A stretch of 43,125 nucleotides of DNA from Pirellulaceae bacterium (GTDB lineage: Bacteria > Planctomycetota > Planctomycetia > Pirellulales > Pirellulaceae): assembly GCA_028281725.1 (NCBI GenBank), contig JANQJJ010000371.1, positions 1 through 43,125 on the forward strand. Reading direction: 5' to 3'. The position numbers and the translations under genes were made by a program. Numbering within the stretch: the stretch's first letter is position 1; each line of letters begins with the position of its first letter. Under the pieces are notes generated by a model. The model saw only the letters and a program-made list of their open reading frames with translations, had not been told where the DNA came from and did no database searches. This document shows, piece after piece, positions 23,182-35,405 of this stretch.

Positions 23182-23627
23182 CACGGCCACGGCCTGTGGA
23201 AGCGGGGCAGATGCCGTTGGGTGCAAACGCAACGGAGGCTCGTGAAAGACGTTCCACTGGGCGAGAGTTGGGTGTGTCGCCTACCGCTCCGCAGGTCGGT
23301 GCGCCCTCGACTGGTTCTATGTAGATAGCCCAACGACACGCTGTCGAAGTGGACCGTTTCCTGCCAGTGGATTCGCTGGCGCCTCTAGCCAGAGATAGAC
23401 TCTGAAGCCAAAGTCGGTCGCGATCTCTTGGGTAACACGACTGTTCATCCAGTCGGCACGCACCGATCGGCGCCAGTGGAACGCGGCTGTATGGTGTCTG
23501 ATCCGCCTTCAGATCGGCCAGCTTTTATCAAGCAAGCGACGAAATGAACTTTTCTTTGGAGGTGTCTCTGTTTTTTGTAAGGAGGCCCCTGAGCAAGTTA
23601 CCAATACTTCTGGAATGAGGTTTTGCG

Positions 23628-24152
23628 TTGCTTGACAAAGATCAAAAATCACTCTTCATGACTTGGCTCGGCGAGCATGGCTCTTCGGTCATGAAGGTGG
23701 CGCGCGCCTACACCCTGACCAGCGAGGAATGTCAAGATCTTGCCCAGGAGATTCTACTGCAGGCCTGGCGGTCCTTGCCAAACTTCAAAGGCGAGGCAAA
23801 CGCGGCAACTTGGTTTTATCGTGTGGCACTCCACACCGCCATGAACTGGCAACGTAAGGACAAACCTCGCCGATCAAGACAACAGCCGCTGCTGGAGGTG
23901 CAAACCGTAGTCACTGACAGGTTGGACGGTGCAGAGCAAGCTCAGCATCGAGATACCGTTGAGCGACTCTACGAAGCAATTCACCAGTTACCGAAAACCG
24001 ACGCAGCACTGGTGCTGTTGTACCTGGACGAACTGAGTTATCGAGAGATGTCGGAAGTGTTAGGCATCTCAGAGAGTAACGTGGGCGTGAAGCTGAATCG
24101 GGCAAAGAAGTCTCTGAGTACATTGATGAATGGGGAATCAGATGGACCCTGA
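23628..24152 (+). CDS. ECF-type RNA polymerase sigma-70 factor
   Basis: 174 aa; region 2 (VMKVARAYTLTSEECQDLAQEILLQAWRSLPNFKGEANAATWFYRVALHTAMNWQRK) and region 4 (YEAIHQLPKTDAALVLLYLDELSYREMSEVLGISESNVGVKLNRAKKSL). Confidence 0.93.
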   Translation: MLDKDQKSLFMTWLGEHGSSVMKVARAYTLTSEECQDLAQEILLQAWRSLPNFKGEANAATWFYRVALHTAMNWQRKDKPRRSRQQPLLEVQTVVTDRLDGAEQAQHRDTVERLYEAIHQLPKTDAALVLLYLDELSYREMSEVLGISESNVGVKLNRAKKSLSTLMNGESDGP

Positions 24153-26376
24153 CAAGTATCAGCAGGCATGGCAAGCACATGAAACTCAGACGCGTGTTAC
24201 CATCCATGCCGACTTACTTCGGAAAGAAATGCAGCGTGACCAGCGAGATTTCCGAACGGTAGTCTTCTGGGGAGATGTTGGTGAAGCTTGGATAGCCATT
24301 CTGCTGGTGCCGGTGTGGATCTATTTGGGCATCGCGACGTCATCACCCTGGACGTGGTATCTAGTGGTGCCAGCTCTGGTTTGGCAAGCGGGGTTTGTGC
24401 TGGTGCAACGCATGCGTCGCCGGCAGAAACCGATTGAGCCAGATGAACCGCTACTGGGGTGCGTGGAACGTTCGCTCGCTGAGTTGGAGCAGCAAATCTG
24501 GTCGGAGCGCAGTGCTTTCTGGATGTCTTCTCTGCCGGCTGGTATTTTGCTGCTGGTATACTTTGCCCACGCCACATGGCTAGGGTCCGACGATTGGTTG
24601 GACGCTCTTGGCTACGCGCCCCTTTTCGCCCTGACGATTGTAATTTTTGGTTTTATTTATTTCATGAATCAATACACCCTACCTAAAAAGTATCAGCCGC
24701 GACGTCAGGAACTGTTGACGCTGCTCGCAAGTCTCCAGGATGAGGCGGGTGAAAACGCCGACGATCATGTCAGCTTGCCTGCATTGCCCTTTAGAGATGG
24801 GAGTCTCCGGACGCCAGGCTATTCTCGGGCCAGAGTTACCATCGGTATGTTGGCTGCTGTCATGATCATGACGGTCACAGTGGGCTTGGTGGTGTTCATT
24901 TTCAACACGGCCCCCTATCTCTTCTCTGAGGAAGGCTACCCTAAGAAATCTCCTTTCGCCGCGGTGCGATGGGAGCAGTACCAACCAGAAGTCAGACTGG
25001 GTGAGGAATGGTTTAAGCTCGTGTCGCTGGATGAACTTCCTGCCGCCGAGATCGTGGCTTTTAGCCGGCGGACCTATGGGGATCGGTGGCGTAAGCGATT
25101 CGAAGAAGACCTCGTCGAGCTTTTAACCGGAATGAAGCATCCGCCCCGGGATCAGGTTACGCTGGTTGTTCAATCGTTGACGTCGTCGGAGACCCAGGTC
25201 CGGGAAGACGTCCCCATGACGTATGCGAATCGGCGGGCGATTTACGATGCGGCTGATAAGCGAGCGATTCCGGAACCACAGCGCAAGCGTGTCGCGCGAG
25301 CTGCCGTCTCCATCGACAACGCCGAGCAGTTCAACCAGCGCGTCGATGAATTCCTGCAGCTCGCGCGAGTCAAGACTGGCTTCTCCGGGGTCGTGGTGGT
25401 GGCTCGAGGGGGCGAACCGGTCTATCAAGGCGCATTCGGATTTTCACATCTCGCATCCAGAATCCCAAACTCACTGGATACGCCATTTCGAATCGCTTCG
25501 CTCTCCAAACAATTCACGGCCGCTGCGATCCTTTCGCTCGAAGCCGAGGGAAAGTTAAGCACGGACGATCCCGTGCACCGCTACCTGCCTGAGTTCACTG
25601 CCGAGCCCTATCGCAGAATCACGATTTATCACCTGTTGACTCACACGTCCGGGCTGCCGCGGACTCCTGAAGAGGCGGCAAGACATGCTCGCTGGGATGC
25701 CATGTCTAGGGCACCAACACCAGTCAACGACTATGTTCGGCTCGCCTGCCAGTGTCCACTCACATTCGAACCGGGGCAGGATTTTCAGTATTCGAACTTC
25801 GGATACCGCGTCCTTTCGGCAATCATCGTCCAAATCACCGGTGAAGAATACGCAGATTTCATGGAGGAGAGATTGTTCACTCCGCTGAGTCTCCGGCAGT
25901 CCGGCGTGGCTCGGATCTCCCAACCGTCAGACGAGGCCCGAGTGGCCGAAGTGGTCAGCTTCGTGGTGCAAAATCATCGCACGCGTGAGCCGTCGTTTGT
26001 GAGCACCGATAGCGGTCGCAATTACGGCACCGGGTACGGAAGTGGTGGAATCTATGCGAGCGCGAACGATCTATTGCGGTGGGATCGAATCCTCGCCGAC
26101 GAGAGCTTTCTTCCCGCAGAGCAGCAGGCCAAGCTCTTCCGGCCGGTTAGGAAACACTATGCTTGCGGATGGATCGTCAAGAAGTCCGGTCTGGACGGTC
26201 GCCTCTATCAAACTCATTCTGGTTCCAATGGAGGGTACTTCAGCAAAATGATGCGCATTCCTGAGGATAACTTGGTCATCATTGCATTGGGCAATGTCCG
26301 CCAGACAGATGAAATTGACGAAGCCCTAGAGCAGTTGTTTCGACTCTGCCGCTCGCTGCCGTATCAAGATTTGTAA
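24142..26376 (+). CDS. Multi-TM membrane protein (candidate anti-sigma-like) fused to C-terminal serine beta-lactamase/PBP-like domain
   Basis: ATG 24142 (MDPDKYQQAWQAHET) overlaps the ECF stop at 24150-24152. About five hydrophobic TM segments in the N-terminal ~265 aa; C-terminal FRIASLSKQFTAAAILSLEAEGKLSTDDPVHRYLPEF (SxxK), FQYSNFGYRVLS (YxN), YQTHSGSNGGYFSKM (HxG). Confidence 0.88.
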   Translation: MDPDKYQQAWQAHETQTRVTIHADLLRKEMQRDQRDFRTVVFWGDVGEAWIAILLVPVWIYLGIATSSPWTWYLVVPALVWQAGFVLVQRMRRRQKPIEPDEPLLGCVERSLAELEQQIWSERSAFWMSSLPAGILLLVYFAHATWLGSDDWLDALGYAPLFALTIVIFGFIYFMNQYTLPKKYQPRRQELLTLLASLQDEAGENADDHVSLPALPFRDGSLRTPGYSRARVTIGMLAAVMIMTVTVGLVVFIFNTAPYLFSEEGYPKKSPFAAVRWEQYQPEVRLGEEWFKLVSLDELPAAEIVAFSRRTYGDRWRKRFEEDLVELLTGMKHPPRDQVTLVVQSLTSSETQVREDVPMTYANRRAIYDAADKRAIPEPQRKRVARAAVSIDNAEQFNQRVDEFLQLARVKTGFSGVVVVARGGEPVYQGAFGFSHLASRIPNSLDTPFRIASLSKQFTAAAILSLEAEGKLSTDDPVHRYLPEFTAEPYRRITIYHLLTHTSGLPRTPEEAARHARWDAMSRAPTPVNDYVRLACQCPLTFEPGQDFQYSNFGYRVLSAIIVQITGEEYADFMEERLFTPLSLRQSGVARISQPSDEARVAEVVSFVVQNHRTREPSFVSTDSGRNYGTGYGSGGIYASANDLLRWDRILADESFLPAEQQAKLFRPVRKHYACGWIVKKSGLDGRLYQTHSGSNGGYFSKMMRIPEDNLVIIALGNVRQTDEIDEALEQLFRLCRSLPYQDL

Positions 26377-27965: not shown

Positions 27966-30900
27966 CTAACGGACACCTTCGGCGAGTGTCGTCAACAATT
28001 CATCTTCATCCTCTTCCTCGTCGTCGTCGGACTGAATGACGAAGTCGATAGCGTTGGCTTGACGGTCGCTCGACATGTTGGAGTTGATTGCATTCACAAC
28101 ATGCAGAGCATCCAGCGCAGAGACGTATCCGTCTTTGTTGACGTCTACATAGTGCTCCAAGGCCAACGTCAGCGTTTGCAGAAACTCCGAGCCGTGCCGA
28201 TTTAAGAAATTCAGAATCAGTAGCACATCCAGCGGACTGGTTGACCCATTGTTGTCAACGTCGGTGGGCAATGCATCGTTGTGGAAGTCCAACTCTGCGT
28301 CCTCATCACTATCGGATTCGTCATTCTCGCCGGTGACCTCGCCCTCTTGCTCGGATTCTGACTCGTCGCCTGCATCCTCATCGACCTCTTCGGACTCACC
28401 GTCTTCGGAGTCACCTTCGTCTTGGTCAGGCTCTGAACCCGAATCGTCGTCGCCCGCATACTCATCGACTTCCTCGGACTCATCGTCTTCAGAATCACCT
28501 TCGTCTTGGTCCGACTCCGAATCTGAATCGTCGTCGCCTGCACCCTCATCGACCTCCTCGGACTCGTCGTCTTCGGAATTACCTTCGTCTTGGTCAGATT
28601 CTGAACCTGAATCGTCGCCGCACGCATCCTCATCGACCTCGTCGGAATCATCGTCTTCAGAATCACCTTCGTCTTGGTCAGACTCTGAACCCGAATCGTC
28701 GTCGCACGCACCCTCATCGACCTCGTCGGACTCTTCGTCTTCGGAATCACCTTCGTCCGAATCTTCGTCCGCTTCGTCACCTCCTCCTTCATCGCCATCT
28801 GGCACCGGCACGCCGCCACTGAAGTTTGTCAGTGTTCCGGGATCAATCAGCACGCCACCGGCTCCCTCGTTGGCCATGTGATACAGCGGCGGCGACGTCG
28901 CGGCGGGTGGAGCGATGCTTCCAACGACGCCACCTGAGACGAATTCAACACTTGCTGCGTCTGCCGGAGCAATTGCTCCTCCGAAAGATGTACCGTACCG
29001 ATCCTTCAGCTGTTGATTGGTCTGCCCAATCATCTCTTCGGGCAATCGCACCGTTTCGTGTTCAATCTGCTGTGTAATTGGCACGAAATCCGCAGCTTGC
29101 TCATCAAAGTAGAGTTGTTGTCCGTTGAAAGTGATCGAATCCGACATCAAGAAAAAGAATGGTTGATGCGCATCGGCATCGAAATCGGCGGACATCACAA
29201 TGTTCCTGCGCTGGCCAGCCAGTTCTGCGACCGCCGTTCCTTCGAGTGACCCGAATGTAACGTCAGTCATCTGCAAGTCTCGAGGGGCTTGCCGAGCTTC
29301 CTTGATCAGCATGTCGGTTGTGTTGCTAAGCCGAACATTGTTCAATTGCCATGTATCCTGACGTGGCGCCAGCAACCCCATATTGAAACCCTCGATCGAT
29401 ACGTTCTCGATCACACCGGGGCCGCGTGTGACTTCGTTGTACATATCAATGCCAACTCCCGTATCGGCGGTACCGCCGTTCTGAACATACGGAGCTCCGA
29501 TGCCGATCAGCCTTGCGTTCTTAATCGACATGCGTTCGTTGTAATTCATCAGCATACCGTCGCGTGATCCCCATACGGTCAGGCCATCGATGGTCGGATT
29601 CAATGTGTCGATATACGCTTGATCTGGCGGCGTGTGGAAGGCGCTTCCGATTTCGCCAAGGTATCCAGCGGAATGAACGTATCGCGAGCGAAATCCAATC
29701 GTCGCACCGTAGGACTCGTTATTGCTGATTTCAGATAGCGGAGCCCACCAAGTTGGGATCGTATCGCGGCCTGTGATCAATTGTCCGTTTTCAAGATGCG
29801 ACACGAGCACACTCGAGCGACCTCGCGTCAGATCCGGTTCGATGATCCCATCGCTCCAAATGATGATTCCATGGGCAGAAGCGCCGGCGGAAACGTTGTC
29901 TCGCATGCTGACCATATGGCCCGACAGCCAGAATCCATCGCCATCGACGCCAAAGTCCATGCGGTCAGCTCGTAGATCAGGATCGATTGCGCCGGCATCA
30001 TCCAGCGTGAAAGTGGGACTGACGGTGCGGATCGCGATGTTGCCAACCATCGACCCGATCTCGTCTCCGACTTCCGTGTAGAACGCCGCGCCTTGAACAC
30101 CGTACGCGACATTGTCGATCATGTTCACATGCGCCGAGTGGTTCACCAGCCCCCAGCCGGGACTGCCAGCGACGACACTTCCAGAGACGGTTGCTGGCGT
30201 ACTATCTGGATTCACTCCACCACGGTGAAAGTGGATAGGGTAGCGGCCGCGAATGTTCGTGCGTGCGCCAGTTGTTGCGGTGAACACCACCGGAGCGCTG
30301 GTCTGATTACCTACTGCATCATCATCGAAATCAAAGATCCAGTCATCCAACGGACGAGTCTTATCAGTGCGCCCCAGATCATTGAATTCCGCGTTTTGAA
30401 TGGCGACGTCCAGCGTATGCATCAGCATGATGTGGCCGCGCCGGGCAACTTCCGTATTTTCAGATGAAAACTGAACGTTCCGAGTCTTGTTGGCAACATA
30501 AACATTCAAGTCCGATTGTGGCGGGATGTGATCCAGCTCGAGAGGCTCGCTGAACGTGACGGAATCGGCGTCAATCGACTCAATGACGCGAACTTCATCA
30601 CTGGTGGCACCCTGCGTCCCCGTAATCACGATTTCATCGCCCGCGTTCCAGTTCACCGGAACCGTACTAAGCTGAATCGATGTCGCACCAGCGGCGGGGA
30701 ACGTGGCCAGCGTGACGCGGTGTGTCGTTTCGACGCCGTGAATCTCAGTAGGTCCTTGCAACACGGCACCGCGGCTGAGTTGACTTGGATCCCAAGTGGT
30801 GTCGATCGCACCATCATCGGCAAACACAACCTTCGCGGTCACGCCCTTAGCGATAGGTTTGGCGGAGGTACCCATTTCGAATCGACCGTGGGGAGCGCTG

Positions 30901-31400
30901 ACGATCGTGTCGACGCGCAGCTGCGTGTTGACATCGGTGGCGAATCGCAGCGTGCCGTGAATACCGATCGTCTTAAATTCAGTCGATATGACCGAATCGA
31001 CAGTCAGCGTCACTCCTTGCGGAATCACAATCCGCGCTCCGGCTTCGGGACGCGCACCGTTCTCCCAAACGTCCGGGTCGGACCAATTGCCGGAAGCGAC
31101 GACGGTATTGGTTGCCTGATCCGCAGAAATTAGAGCCATAGCGGCCGGATTGGCTGCGTGCTGATGACTCTCGTGGCCAGATTCCATCGTCGCAGAAACG
31201 CTACTTTCGCCGGCGGCCAATTCCGTGATTGACCCAATCTCCGCGACCGGATCAACCAACGAAACGTCGCCCGCAAGCAGTTGCCGGGCACCGAGCGTTT
31301 CCAACAACAAGCGACGATTTCTTTTTTTCAGCCGGCCAACTTTTCTACCGTTGGCTTTCGACCGGCGACCAAGCGATTGGTGAATCCAGTTGCAAGACAT
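27966..31400 (-). CDS. Large surface protein: planctomycete-type signal, G8 domain, right-handed beta-helix, acidic repeat linker, dockerin-like EF repeats
   Basis: 1144 aa. N-term RRLLLETLGARQLLAGDVSL; G8-like WSDPDVWENGARPEAGARIVIPQGVTLTVDSVISTEFKTIGIHGTLRFATDVNTQLRVDTIV; beta-helix-like middle; C-term DVDNNGSTSPLDVLLILNFLNRHG ... DVNKDGYVSALDALHVVNAINS (dockerin type I-like). Confidence 0.88.
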   Translation of the reverse strand: MSCNWIHQSLGRRSKANGRKVGRLKKRNRRLLLETLGARQLLAGDVSLVDPVAEIGSITELAAGESSVSATMESGHESHQHAANPAAMALISADQATNTVVASGNWSDPDVWENGARPEAGARIVIPQGVTLTVDSVISTEFKTIGIHGTLRFATDVNTQLRVDTIVSAPHGRFEMGTSAKPIAKGVTAKVVFADDGAIDTTWDPSQLSRGAVLQGPTEIHGVETTHRVTLATFPAAGATSIQLSTVPVNWNAGDEIVITGTQGATSDEVRVIESIDADSVTFSEPLELDHIPPQSDLNVYVANKTRNVQFSSENTEVARRGHIMLMHTLDVAIQNAEFNDLGRTDKTRPLDDWIFDFDDDAVGNQTSAPVVFTATTGARTNIRGRYPIHFHRGGVNPDSTPATVSGSVVAGSPGWGLVNHSAHVNMIDNVAYGVQGAAFYTEVGDEIGSMVGNIAIRTVSPTFTLDDAGAIDPDLRADRMDFGVDGDGFWLSGHMVSMRDNVSAGASAHGIIIWSDGIIEPDLTRGRSSVLVSHLENGQLITGRDTIPTWWAPLSEISNNESYGATIGFRSRYVHSAGYLGEIGSAFHTPPDQAYIDTLNPTIDGLTVWGSRDGMLMNYNERMSIKNARLIGIGAPYVQNGGTADTGVGIDMYNEVTRGPGVIENVSIEGFNMGLLAPRQDTWQLNNVRLSNTTDMLIKEARQAPRDLQMTDVTFGSLEGTAVAELAGQRRNIVMSADFDADAHQPFFFLMSDSITFNGQQLYFDEQAADFVPITQQIEHETVRLPEEMIGQTNQQLKDRYGTSFGGAIAPADAASVEFVSGGVVGSIAPPAATSPPLYHMANEGAGGVLIDPGTLTNFSGGVPVPDGDEGGGDEADEDSDEGDSEDEESDEVDEGACDDDSGSESDQDEGDSEDDDSDEVDEDACGDDSGSESDQDEGNSEDDESEEVDEGAGDDDSDSESDQDEGDSEDDESEEVDEYAGDDDSGSEPDQDEGDSEDGESEEVDEDAGDESESEQEGEVTGENDESDSDEDAELDFHNDALPTDVDNNGSTSPLDVLLILNFLNRHGSEFLQTLTLALEHYVDVNKDGYVSALDALHVVNAINSNMSSDRQANAIDFVIQSDDDEEEDEDELLTTLAEGVR
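28338..28757 (-). repeat. In-frame ~84-bp tandem repeat (28-aa acidic units, about 5 copies) inside the G8/dockerin gene
   Basis: Units DEGDSEDEESDEVDEGACDDDSGSESDQ / DEGDSEDDDSDEVDEDACGDDSGSESDQ / DEGNSEDDESEEVDEGAGDDDSDSESDQ / DEGDSEDDESEEVDEYAGDDDSGSEPDQ / DEGDSEDGESEEVDEDAGDESESEQEGE. Confidence 0.9.
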
Positions 31401-32398: not shown

Positions 32399-33004
32399 AT
32401 GCGCGTGGCTGAAGCGGCGCCAACACGACTGAGCTTGCTGGTTCGACTGCGGAACAGTGATGATACTGACGCGTGGTCGCAGTTTGTCGAAATATACAGT
32501 CCCTTGATTTTCAGCTTCGCTCGTCGATGCGGATTGCAGGACAGCGACGCGGCCGATCTGGTGCAGGAAGTGATGGGAGAGGTCGCCAAGTCGATCAAGC
32601 GCTTTGAATACGATCCGCAAATCGGCAAGTTTCGCAGTTGGCTGTACAAGATCGCCAAGCGAAAGATTTCAAGAATCCACAAAAAGCAGGCGCGTCAACC
32701 GATTGCCTCCGGTCAGAGCGGAGCGTTTAGAATGATCGCGAACCAGCCCGACTCTCACAACGAAGTTCAAGAATTCTGGGACCGGGAGTACCAGAGGCAC
32801 TTGATCGATTGGGCGGCCGAGAATGTCCGGCCTCATATCAAGGAAGCTACTTGGAGGGCATTCTGGCTAACATCGGTCGAGGAACAGTCGCCTCAAGAGG
32901 TCGCTGAACAACTTGGCATGAGTGTCGGAGCCGTATATGTGGCGAAGAGTCGCGTGACGAAACGGCTTGCGGAAAAGATCCGAGAGATTGATGACAGCCA
33001 GTAA
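32399..33004 (+). CDS. ECF-type RNA polymerase sigma factor (planctomycete, kinase-associated)
   Basis: 201 aa; SLLVRLRNSDDTDAWSQFVEIYSPLIFSFARRCGLQDSDAADLVQEVMGEVAKSIKRFEYDPQIGKFRSWLYKIAKRKI and ATWRAFWLTSVEEQSPQEVAEQLGMSVGAVYVAKSRVTKRLAEKI. Confidence 0.93.
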   Translation: MRVAEAAPTRLSLLVRLRNSDDTDAWSQFVEIYSPLIFSFARRCGLQDSDAADLVQEVMGEVAKSIKRFEYDPQIGKFRSWLYKIAKRKISRIHKKQARQPIASGQSGAFRMIANQPDSHNEVQEFWDREYQRHLIDWAAENVRPHIKEATWRAFWLTSVEEQSPQEVAEQLGMSVGAVYVAKSRVTKRLAEKIREIDDSQ

Positions 33005-35405
33005 CCCTTGCCCAGACGATTCCGTTTTGGAAGACCTTGTCGCTGGCCGGCTGGCGTGGGACCTGGTCGAGCAATGGACCGCACATATCGACACCTGCGC
33101 CAATTGCCAACGAGGGATATTGACCCAGCCGAGTCTTGCAAATCTTGAAGCCTGGTTACCGGAACTGAAGCATGCAAAAAGCGACAAGCCGCATCTGCGA
33201 CAGGCCATTGACAAGGTAAAGTTGCTGCGTGGATCCACGCCGTTGCCCGGCTCACACGAAGCCGATCCACACGAGTCGCAAGCCGCTGCCAACCCCACCG
33301 CATTTACCGACGATGGCTTTGAACTGCTTGGCACCATCGGACGTGGTGGCATGGGCGTTGTTTACCGCGCCCGTGACAAATCGTTGAACCGCGTTGTCGC
33401 GATTAAAACGTTGGCGCCCGAGCTGGTTATCGATCCTTCCGCGCGAAAGAGGTTTCTGCGAGAAGCGCGTTCGGCAGCCGCAGTAACCCATCCCAATGTG
33501 ATTACGGTTTATACCGTTTCCGAGAAACCGCCGCAGCCGTACCTAGTGATGGAATACGTCGAAGGAATTTCGCTCCAACAGCAACTTGATCGAGGTGGAA
33601 CGATCAGCATTGTCAATGTCGTTCGCATCGGTCGACAGCTTGGCGCCGCGCTCACTGCCGCACACAGCAAGGGCGTGATCCATCGCGACATCAAACCTGG
33701 CAACATCATACTAAATGCGCAGGCTGGCAAAGTCATGTTAGGCGATTTTGGACTTGCCCGAGTAGGCGGACACTCCCGCCTCACGCGTTCCGGTACGATC
33801 GTCGGTACCCCGGCCTTCATCGCTCCAGAAACGATCGAATCTGAGAGCAGTGCTGATCATCGCGCCGATCTATTCAGTCTGGGTGCCGTTCTATATGCGA
33901 TGTGCAGTGGTGATTCGCCATTCCAAACGGATTCGCTGCTCGGGACACTTCATCGCGTTTCCTCGGTGGATCCAGCTAAACTCTCCGATCAGGCGCCGCA
34001 TGTTCCCCTTTGGCTATCCGACGTCGTCATGCGACTGTTGGCGAAAAATCCCAATGATCGGTTCCAATCAGCCGTCGACGTCTGCGAAGCACTCAGACGT
34101 GGTCCAACTGAGAACGCATCGTCAGAACGGACAGCGGCGGTCAATGAAACGAAACCCCTGAAGACGTTTCCCGGCACCTCGTCTAAATCAGGAAGCGCTT
34201 CCAGTGTCCGTGTTCGCGCTAAGCGGAAGACGGTCAATCCAATAGCAAAGTACCTTGGAATCGCTGCATCCATTCTGCTTCCCTTGGGGCTAGCCGTTTT
34301 CTTGCTAAGCAATGATGGCGGGAGGCAGCAGGCTGGCAACGAAAAACCATCCCAAGCGAGCGGGGACGCGGGACCGAACAAACCAATCGGCAGGATCGCA
34401 TCATCAGAAATTGCGATGAAAACAGACGGCAATGTCGAAGAAAATGTGTTCATAGTGATTGATGAAGGCCAAGAACTGATTGGAGCCTTTGATACGCTCG
34501 CTGACGCGGTTGATCACCTACCGTCGCGGGCGACGATTCAGATTCGTTCGAACGAGGCAATCGACATCGAACCGTGTTCGATCGACGGGCATGGGGTCAC
34601 TATGATGGCGGCTCCGGGATTCACACCCTCGCTGCATTTTGAGCCGGACCTGGAAGAAGAATACGAGTCGATGATAGCTACGGAAGGAAGCCTGAAGCTG
34701 GTTGGCCTGGAACTCCGGCTTCCTGCGCACGTTGATGAAGAGACATTTTCATTGATTGACGTATGCGATCAAGGATCTCTGCAGCTAACGGATTGCCGGC
34801 TGGTGGTTGAAGACATGGGGTACTGCCTGAGCGGTGATTCGGAATCGACAATCGATGTTGTCCGTTGTCACCTGCACGCTCCGCGCTCCGCGGCAGCAGG
34901 TTTGTTCAACAATGATGGCGGATCAACGAGTTTGCAAGAATCATGGGTCACCGGCAAAGTAGGATTTCATCTGGTTGGCAACTTGGCACACAGATTAACA
35001 CTCCGCAACAGTCGAGTCATTTGCAACTTGGCATTTCAAATCGAAGCGGACGAATTGGAAGAAGAGGAGGTCACGCACGTCTCCTACATCGACGGTTCCG
35101 TGCTGTTCGTAACCGAGGCGCTGGCTGCTGAAGATGGAGAGCAACTGGACCTTCAATCACTTCGTGAAGCTATCAAGTTTGTCGGTCGCCAAAACACGTT
35201 CGCGGGAATCTTGTTCCCAGATGATGAGCCCGAACAATGGCGACAGTGGCGAGAGTATTTGCTCGAGCACGATTCTCTTTATGTCCAGAATCCACTTGGT
35301 ATCGATGCAAAGACCATCTCAGAGACAATACATGGCGCGGCGTTTCCTGGTTTTGCGTTTGATGCAGAGTCGAACTCGGCGCGACCGATCCAACTTGTCG
35401 ACTAA
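32991..35405 (+). CDS. Hanks-type Ser/Thr kinase with zinc-finger anti-sigma-like N-terminus, TM helix and extracytoplasmic beta-helix-like domain
   Basis: ATG 32991 overlaps the ECF stop (33002-33004). HIDTCANC matches HxxxCxxC; kinase motifs GRGGMGVVYRARD, VAIKTL, HRDIKPGN, DFGLARVGG, GTPAFIAPE; TM YLGIAASILLPLGLAVFLLS; C-terminal repeats like GSLKLVGLELRLP, GSLQLTDCRLVVE, STIDVVRCHLH, RLTLRNSRVICN. Confidence 0.92.
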   Translation: MTASNPCPDDSVLEDLVAGRLAWDLVEQWTAHIDTCANCQRGILTQPSLANLEAWLPELKHAKSDKPHLRQAIDKVKLLRGSTPLPGSHEADPHESQAAANPTAFTDDGFELLGTIGRGGMGVVYRARDKSLNRVVAIKTLAPELVIDPSARKRFLREARSAAAVTHPNVITVYTVSEKPPQPYLVMEYVEGISLQQQLDRGGTISIVNVVRIGRQLGAALTAAHSKGVIHRDIKPGNIILNAQAGKVMLGDFGLARVGGHSRLTRSGTIVGTPAFIAPETIESESSADHRADLFSLGAVLYAMCSGDSPFQTDSLLGTLHRVSSVDPAKLSDQAPHVPLWLSDVVMRLLAKNPNDRFQSAVDVCEALRRGPTENASSERTAAVNETKPLKTFPGTSSKSGSASSVRVRAKRKTVNPIAKYLGIAASILLPLGLAVFLLSNDGGRQQAGNEKPSQASGDAGPNKPIGRIASSEIAMKTDGNVEENVFIVIDEGQELIGAFDTLADAVDHLPSRATIQIRSNEAIDIEPCSIDGHGVTMMAAPGFTPSLHFEPDLEEEYESMIATEGSLKLVGLELRLPAHVDEETFSLIDVCDQGSLQLTDCRLVVEDMGYCLSGDSESTIDVVRCHLHAPRSAAAGLFNNDGGSTSLQESWVTGKVGFHLVGNLAHRLTLRNSRVICNLAFQIEADELEEEEVTHVSYIDGSVLFVTEALAAEDGEQLDLQSLREAIKFVGRQNTFAGILFPDDEPEQWRQWREYLLEHDSLYVQNPLGIDAKTISETIHGAAFPGFAFDAESNSARPIQLVD

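Follow-up and report, generated by a model that had tools for sequence, protein, structure and literature searches.

In Bacillus thuringiensis, a sensor of the penicillin-binding protein (PBP) type acts together with an extracytoplasmic function (ECF) sigma factor in the sigmaP/RsiP/PbpP system, the outputs of which include beta-lactamases (PMC8092216). PbpP is a separate protein there, and proteases degrade RsiP in successive steps (PMC8092216). The present analysis concerns a stretch of DNA of 43,125 nucleotides (hereafter the window; positions 1 to 43,125 of contig JANQJJ010000371.1, assembly GCA_028281725.1) from a Pirellulaceae bacterium, in which an ECF gene overlaps the gene of a membrane protein with several transmembrane (TM) helices and a C-terminal class C beta-lactamase/S12 serine-hydrolase (BL) domain. 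To our knowledge, signals and mechanisms have not been established for many ECF groups, the planctomycete ones included. We assume, with a probability of about 0.68, that the two genes encode an ECF sigma factor and a putative transmembrane anti-sigma factor with an external BL-fold receptor, that their operon is autoregulated and that its outputs include an active paralogue.

Association of the ECF factor with a membrane partner and a BL domain

The membrane protein of the window (744 aa; in-frame open reading frame (ORF) 24142-26376) has the following domain order: an N-terminal domain with four TM helices (N-TM), a fifth TM helix, a domain designated MID and the BL domain. Relatives were collected with profile A1, which covers the first 202 residues of N-TM proteins and holds no ECF sequence. 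A search of about 1,000 genomes, grouped into overlapping order, family and phylum sets, gave matches in 36 of 397, 35 of 241 and 19 of 392 genomes, respectively; a first contig scan with a degenerate pattern had given only two loci, and profile searches took its place. An ECF gene was found directly upstream of the N-TM gene in 77 of 78 distinct planctomycete loci, namely 74 with a match to the family ECF profile and three with an ECF fragment (frame-broken or at a contig end). The lone N-TM locus without an ECF gene starts at a contig edge. The two genes share an identical 11-nt overlap in 45 of 74 pairs, and the start codon used in the window is thus conserved. ECF and N-TM distances were found to correlate (r = 0.88 for 65 pairs; permutations did not exceed 0.30). 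Partners that are inherited together would show such a correlation, and shared species history contributes to it. No natural fusion of ECF with N-TM was found among the loci.

The BL domain was fused to N-TM in 21 of the 78 loci, and in 15 further loci a stand-alone BL gene adjoined the ECF/N-TM pair. Where inspected, these neighbouring stand-alone proteins had an N-terminal export-type extension. The association of ECF, TM protein and BL is conserved far above chance. The earlier note on this DNA had set conserved ECF and TM-BL pairs beforehand as one test on which its proposal could fail, and the proposal withstood it. The genome of the window contains 71 Sigma70_r2 and 12 BL matches, and it is just this locus that pairs them within 5 kb. 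Phylogenetic analysis revealed that fused BL domains occupy four positions in the BL tree, namely the window domain with that of locus L102, the domain of locus L069, a clade of seven with the motif ASVTK and a clade of ten with the motif GxxK. A single clade of fused domains was rejected by the approximately unbiased test (p-AU 7.6e-8), which points to at least four separate origins of the fusion. Since the same fold was recruited repeatedly to the same partner, the link appears to be functional; this is the strongest argument of the analysis.

The N-TM domain was followed by nothing, by more TM helices, or by MID, BL, BL-MID or MID-BL. In the loci L036, L038, L046, L048, L095 and L097, two or three extra TM helices follow it without BL or MID, and the promoter described below is retained. 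No Pfam or NCBIfam family was found above the cut-off for N-TM, which, judged from these scans, appears to be a family absent from both catalogues. RseC_MucC was considered as a candidate, matching 7 of 10 members below the threshold (best 3.1e-5) and, in the window protein, covering the TM3-TM4 part; this was judged to be a transmembrane resemblance.

A simple hydropathy scan, in place of a dedicated topology predictor, showed five hydrophobic helices in the window protein at about residues 46-64, 70-88, 124-142, 156-174 and 236-254, and the numbers of lysine and arginine residues in successive loops were 3/0/7/0/7/0. The odd helix count together with this positive-inside alternation leads to a predicted topology with the N-terminus inside and the BL domain outside. 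In the AlphaFold2 model (54-sequence alignment, mean predicted local distance difference test (pLDDT) 82.5, predicted template modelling score (pTM) 0.54), the long helices 23-66, 70-92, 104-148, 159-202 and 229-260 agree with the hydropathy helices and the C-terminal part has the class C/S12 fold; because of the pTM value, the relative placement of the domains is unreliable. The proposals of the earlier note that the gene downstream of the ECF gene overlaps it, that the protein has about five TM helices and that an odd count places the domain outside agree with these results, the last of them as a prediction. In family members with all helices detected, five or seven TM helices precede the outer domain, and the short proteins with N-TM alone have four. 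Deviant counts in some members arise because weak helices miss the threshold of the scan.

The same note had described an intermediate region between the helices and the C-terminal domain. The region is present, but it is a separate folded domain, MID, which the note had not distinguished. Modelled alone with AlphaFold2, MID reached a pLDDT of 90.5, as for a folded domain, and its conserved motif centres on KRFEEDLVE (alignment A4). No sequence relatives of MID were found in Pfam or the PDB. Several weak Foldseek matches suggested a PDZ/S41-like domain (best E 0.24), and this assignment was not accepted. In an 80-genome sample, MID was confined to N-TM proteins with one exception, an 837-aa protein of genome G037 (L116, 115-2628, minus strand) that combines several TM helices and a peptidase-like segment of the M23 type (HLHLQ) with a serine-bearing BL domain and MID. 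There is no ECF gene alongside it, and by its architecture BL-MID also occurs together with a module resembling peptidoglycan hydrolases.

The BL domain of the window was attributed to PF00144 (residues 406-726, 211.7 bits with a cut-off of 27, E 2.1e-62). Its closest PDB sequences were a PBP (3tg9) and an alkaline D-peptidase (4y7p), and the Foldseek match was FmtA-like 4gdn (E 8e-17). It scores 66 bits with the class C beta-lactamase equivalog NF033085 (cut-off 415) and so, by annotation standards, would not be called a beta-lactamase.

Catalytic motifs and the shared promoter motif

The intact SxxK, YxN and HxG motifs reported by the earlier note were confirmed as SLSK, YSN and HSG. Glycine stands in place of the SxxK serine in 11 of the 21 fused domains (GISK, GITK, GVAK, GIAK, GLTK, GITQ, GLSQ), most of which retain the lysine, YSN and HNG. 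The motifs are intact in the fused domains of the ASVTK clade and L069; the window's partner in its fused lineage, L102, is without catalytic residues (GLSQ, HSR). Stand-alone BL neighbours retained SxxK in 25 of 26 cases. The sole degenerate one (SxxM, FSM) is encoded in locus L054 at 353-1735 on the minus strand. The difference in serine loss between fused and stand-alone domains gave a Fisher p of 1.8e-4, uncorrected for phylogeny, with at least two independent losses. In three pairs of serine-less domains, the ratio of nonsynonymous to synonymous substitution rates (dN/dS) was 0.09-0.23, and therefore these domains are under purifying selection and not decaying. In the BL tree, serine-bearing stand-alone neighbours form the sister clade of the serine-less GxxK clade. 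Such a pairing of serine-less fused domains with serine-bearing stand-alone ones is what one would expect if a receptor and an enzyme had arisen from the same fold.

The motif TGTAA-N18-[TG]AC[CT]AA was found ahead of the ECF gene in 47 of 74 loci, with a spacing of exactly 18 nt in 47 of 47. The consensus ahead of the ECF genes, TGTAAG-N17-TACCAAT, is set in T-rich surroundings. The top 4+4 dyad occurred in 37 of 68 upstream regions, compared with at most 6 in dinucleotide shuffles. A weight matrix was trained on ECF-upstream sites alone and then applied elsewhere; it is circular for the ECF sites and not for the BL sites. In the five loci with the gene order BL-ECF-N-TM, the motif stood before the BL gene in all five (scores 30-43) and was not found immediately upstream of the ECF gene. 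Of 25 stand-alone BL genes in the neighbourhood, 11 were preceded within 260 nt by a site that scored at least 10. Among 386 control ORFs drawn from the retrieved loci there was one such case, an ORF that itself overlaps an ECF gene. The remaining stand-alone BL genes mostly lie close behind in the same operon. On the basis of the BL-gene sites, which are independent of the matrix, hydrolases of the BL family are predicted targets of the sigma factor.

On the genome scale, 49 strict matches were found in 47 genomes, and the reversed-pattern control gave 24. The 38 best sites (score of at least 25) comprised 31 before family ECF genes, 6 before BL genes and 1 located some 360 nt ahead of an ECF ORF. 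The complete genome G008 contains just two strict sites, belonging to the ECF gene and to an unlinked BL gene (L121) about 0.75 Mb away. In the genome of the window, which is a draft assembly of 6.3 Mb in 568 contigs, the single strict match is the operon's own predicted promoter; no convincing second target was found in this incomplete genome, where relaxed matching yielded two low-scoring sites, compared with eight for the reversed pattern used as control. A weaker match (L139, G197:C1:480843-480872, score 16.4) lies ahead of another ECF gene, behind which comes a cysteine-containing ORF resembling a zinc-finger anti-sigma factor; this may reflect cross-talk or chance. From the conserved promoter motif before the operon, we infer that the system is autoregulated.

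Table 1. Features of the ECF/N-TM-BL locus in window coordinates.
Feature	Position	Strand	Basis
Predicted ECF-type promoter: TGTAAG (23576-23581), 17 nt, TACCAAT (23599-23605), T-rich context	23571..23608	+	
ECF sigma-70 factor (regions 2 and 4), 174 aa, TTG start	23628..24152	+	Pfam, NCBIfam sigma70-ECF superfamily
N-TM domain (about residues 1-202): N-terminus in the cytoplasm, four TM helices, conserved loop and tail on the cytoplasmic side; putative anti-sigma/sensor module	24142..24744	+	profile A1
Fifth TM helix, about residues 236-254	24847..24903	+	hydropathy, K+R distribution; AlphaFold2 helix 229-260
MID domain, about residues 266-371, predicted extracytoplasmic	24937..25254	+	profile A2/A4
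Class C beta-lactamase/S12 serine-hydrolase domain, predicted extracytoplasmic	25336..26373	+	PF00144
SLSK catalytic motif, residues 453-456, intact	25498..25509	+	direct reading, alignment of 47 BL domains
YSN motif, residues 550-552	25789..25797	+	direct reading, alignment
HSG motif, residues 692-694	26215..26223	+	direct reading, alignment

The ECF factor of the window matches Sigma70_r2 (PF04542; 46.8 bits with a cut-off of 24, E 2.5e-12) and Sigma70_r4_2 (PF08281; 52.9 bits with a cut-off of 25.7, E 2.8e-14). The 11-nt overlap places the downstream ATG (24142) ahead of the ECF stop codon TGA (24150-24152), from which we infer co-transcription of the two genes. A matching locus with 59% identity was found in a metagenome-assembled genome of Planctomycetota, and the window also encodes the planctomycete-specific domains PSCyt1, PSCyt2, PSD1 and Planc_extracel; both findings assign it to the Planctomycetota. 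A second ECF gene of the window (32399-33004, plus strand; Sigma70_r2 and r4_2) overlaps a Ser/Thr protein kinase ORF (32967-35405, plus strand); ECF/kinase pairs are already known from planctomycetes. On the minus strand, an ORF at 27966-31400 encodes a protein of 1144 aa, in which G8 and CEMIP beta-helix domains are combined with an extended acidic repeat region of D, E and S and a C-terminal dockerin.

Proposed mechanism and its alternatives

According to the proposed mechanism, the membrane protein would restrain its partner ECF sigma factor via its cytoplasmic face. The BL-fold domain, which five TM helices and MID are predicted to hold on the outer side of the membrane, would serve as a receptor; its extracytoplasmic ligand would probably be a D-amino-acid peptide or peptidoglycan fragment or a beta-lactam-like compound. 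Binding of the ligand would free the sigma factor, which could then transcribe its own operon from the conserved promoter, whose activity is predicted. In many relatives, as the in silico data suggest, the sigma factor may also drive one or more secreted, catalytically intact BL hydrolases, either by read-through or from a copy of the promoter in front of these genes. One lineage of relatives has fused domains without a nucleophile; as receptors these would only bind, and hydrolysis would fall to the stand-alone paralogue; the window domain, having the nucleophile, could be acylated or could also act as an enzyme. The promoter motif shared by ECF and BL genes, together with the fused domains lacking a nucleophile, favours a sensing role. 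The two proposals of the earlier note, a transmembrane anti-sigma factor and a domain that senses a cell-wall or beta-lactam-type ligand, are thus plausible, the second with indirect support from the serine-less clade and the predicted regulon. S12-type domains have a range of substrates, among them D-peptides and esters. Because of this range and because the window domain lies far below the class C equivalog cut-offs, a beta-lactam sensor is just one possibility. The chances seem about even that the family is a new class of one-protein receptors, with the BL/PBP fold built into a multi-TM anti-sigma factor, and that in part of the family the domain, its nucleophile lost, is a non-covalent receptor, the sigma factor under its control making the active secreted paralogue. 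Sensor and enzyme would then be a pair of common fold, connected through an ECF sigma factor.

Several observations weigh against this reading. No match to an anti-sigma family was found in the cytoplasmic part of the window protein in the Pfam and NCBIfam scans. BL was neither fused nor adjacent in 42 of 78 N-TM loci, and therefore it is no obligate part of the system. The four fused BL clades differ and so may not share one ligand. The serine losses are phylogenetically non-independent, belonging to one clade of ten plus L102. Finally, as its catalytic residues are intact, the window domain could equally be an enzyme, and the role of a pure receptor is not forced.

The last point leads to the explanation that competes best with the receptor, although it appears unlikely, namely that the fused BL domain has the role of an effector, as a membrane-anchored hydrolase of the D,D-peptidase or esterase type whose synthesis the ECF factor switches on when needed, and that the four-TM part alone senses. 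It is consistent with the intact SxxK, YxN and HxG motifs in the window, the ASVTK clade and L069, and with the N-TM-only and seven-TM members without BL, which keep the same ECF factor and promoter and show that the four-TM part can dispense with BL. However, the ten-member clade and L102 lost the nucleophile, the clade mostly keeping the lysine, YSN and HNG under purifying selection, and many operons already contain a separate intact secreted BL, next to which an anchored enzyme would be redundant.

We consider it still less probable that the TM protein is no anti-sigma factor and instead activates the ECF factor or assists it as a co-factor, or is an unrelated membrane enzyme that is only co-transcribed. 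The failure to find a known anti-sigma domain speaks for this, but the adjacency in 77 of 78 loci, the strict overlap, the N-in topology and the correlated divergence (r = 0.88) argue against it. Chance neighbourhood, or domain shuffling within a single lineage, is hardly credible as the origin of the association: BL genes are numerous in such genomes (12 matches in that of the window), but the fused lineages are four and separate, other loci have a BL gene next door, and copies of the promoter motif precede BL genes, an unlinked one included.

Comparison with known systems

No description of the ECF/N-TM-BL system was found in the open-licence literature, and the pair looks like a previously undescribed route to sense and answer cell-wall-type signals. 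One ECF subgroup gains a partner family, a predicted promoter, predicted targets and a candidate class of ligands, the S12 substrates, including D-peptides, peptidoglycan stems and beta-lactam-like compounds. With its exact promoter spacing and small predicted regulon, the system could be tested by means of a single reporter. If the proposed mechanism is true, the serine-less fused domains beside active paralogues represent an enzyme fold turned receptor, and the system adds further wiring for the sensing of beta-lactams or the cell wall besides BlaR1 and PbpP.

The window protein shares the fold and the three catalytic motifs with class C/S12 hydrolases (AmpC, AmpH, FmtA-like, LACTB, alkaline D-peptidase). 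Unlike them, it lies below the NCBIfam equivalog cut-offs and is fused to a five-TM ECF partner and MID, and several of its relatives are without the nucleophile. The operon order, the overlap, the predicted cytoplasmic N-terminus and the putative autoregulatory promoter are as in pairs of ECF factors and membrane anti-sigma factors, including multi-TM ones; in contrast to such pairs in general, N-TM is outside the catalogued families and the extracytoplasmic BL and MID modules are exchangeable.

The earlier note had compared the protein with BlaR1/MecR1 while allowing for a different output, and the comparison holds as a functional analogy. Like BlaR1/MecR1-BlaI/MecI, the system would comprise a membrane receptor with an external domain of the penicillin-recognising type and an output that includes a hydrolase. 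The differences are that no peptidase M56 family was found in the window protein in the Pfam or NCBIfam scans, so that it is without a recognised protease domain of the BlaR1 type, that there is no repressor of the BlaI type, that the output would pass through an ECF sigma factor and that the external domain is class C/S12-like. With sigmaP/RsiP/PbpP, the planctomycete system shares the joint encoding of an ECF factor, a membrane partner and a protein or domain of the penicillin-binding type, which on the proposed reading would be the sensor in both; it belongs neither to this type nor to that of BlaR1/MecR1, and it differs in that a BL fold of class C/S12, sometimes without its nucleophile, is a covalent part of a partner with five or seven TM helices. 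Judged by analogy, sigmaP/RsiP/PbpP appears to be a closer parallel than BlaR1/MecR1.

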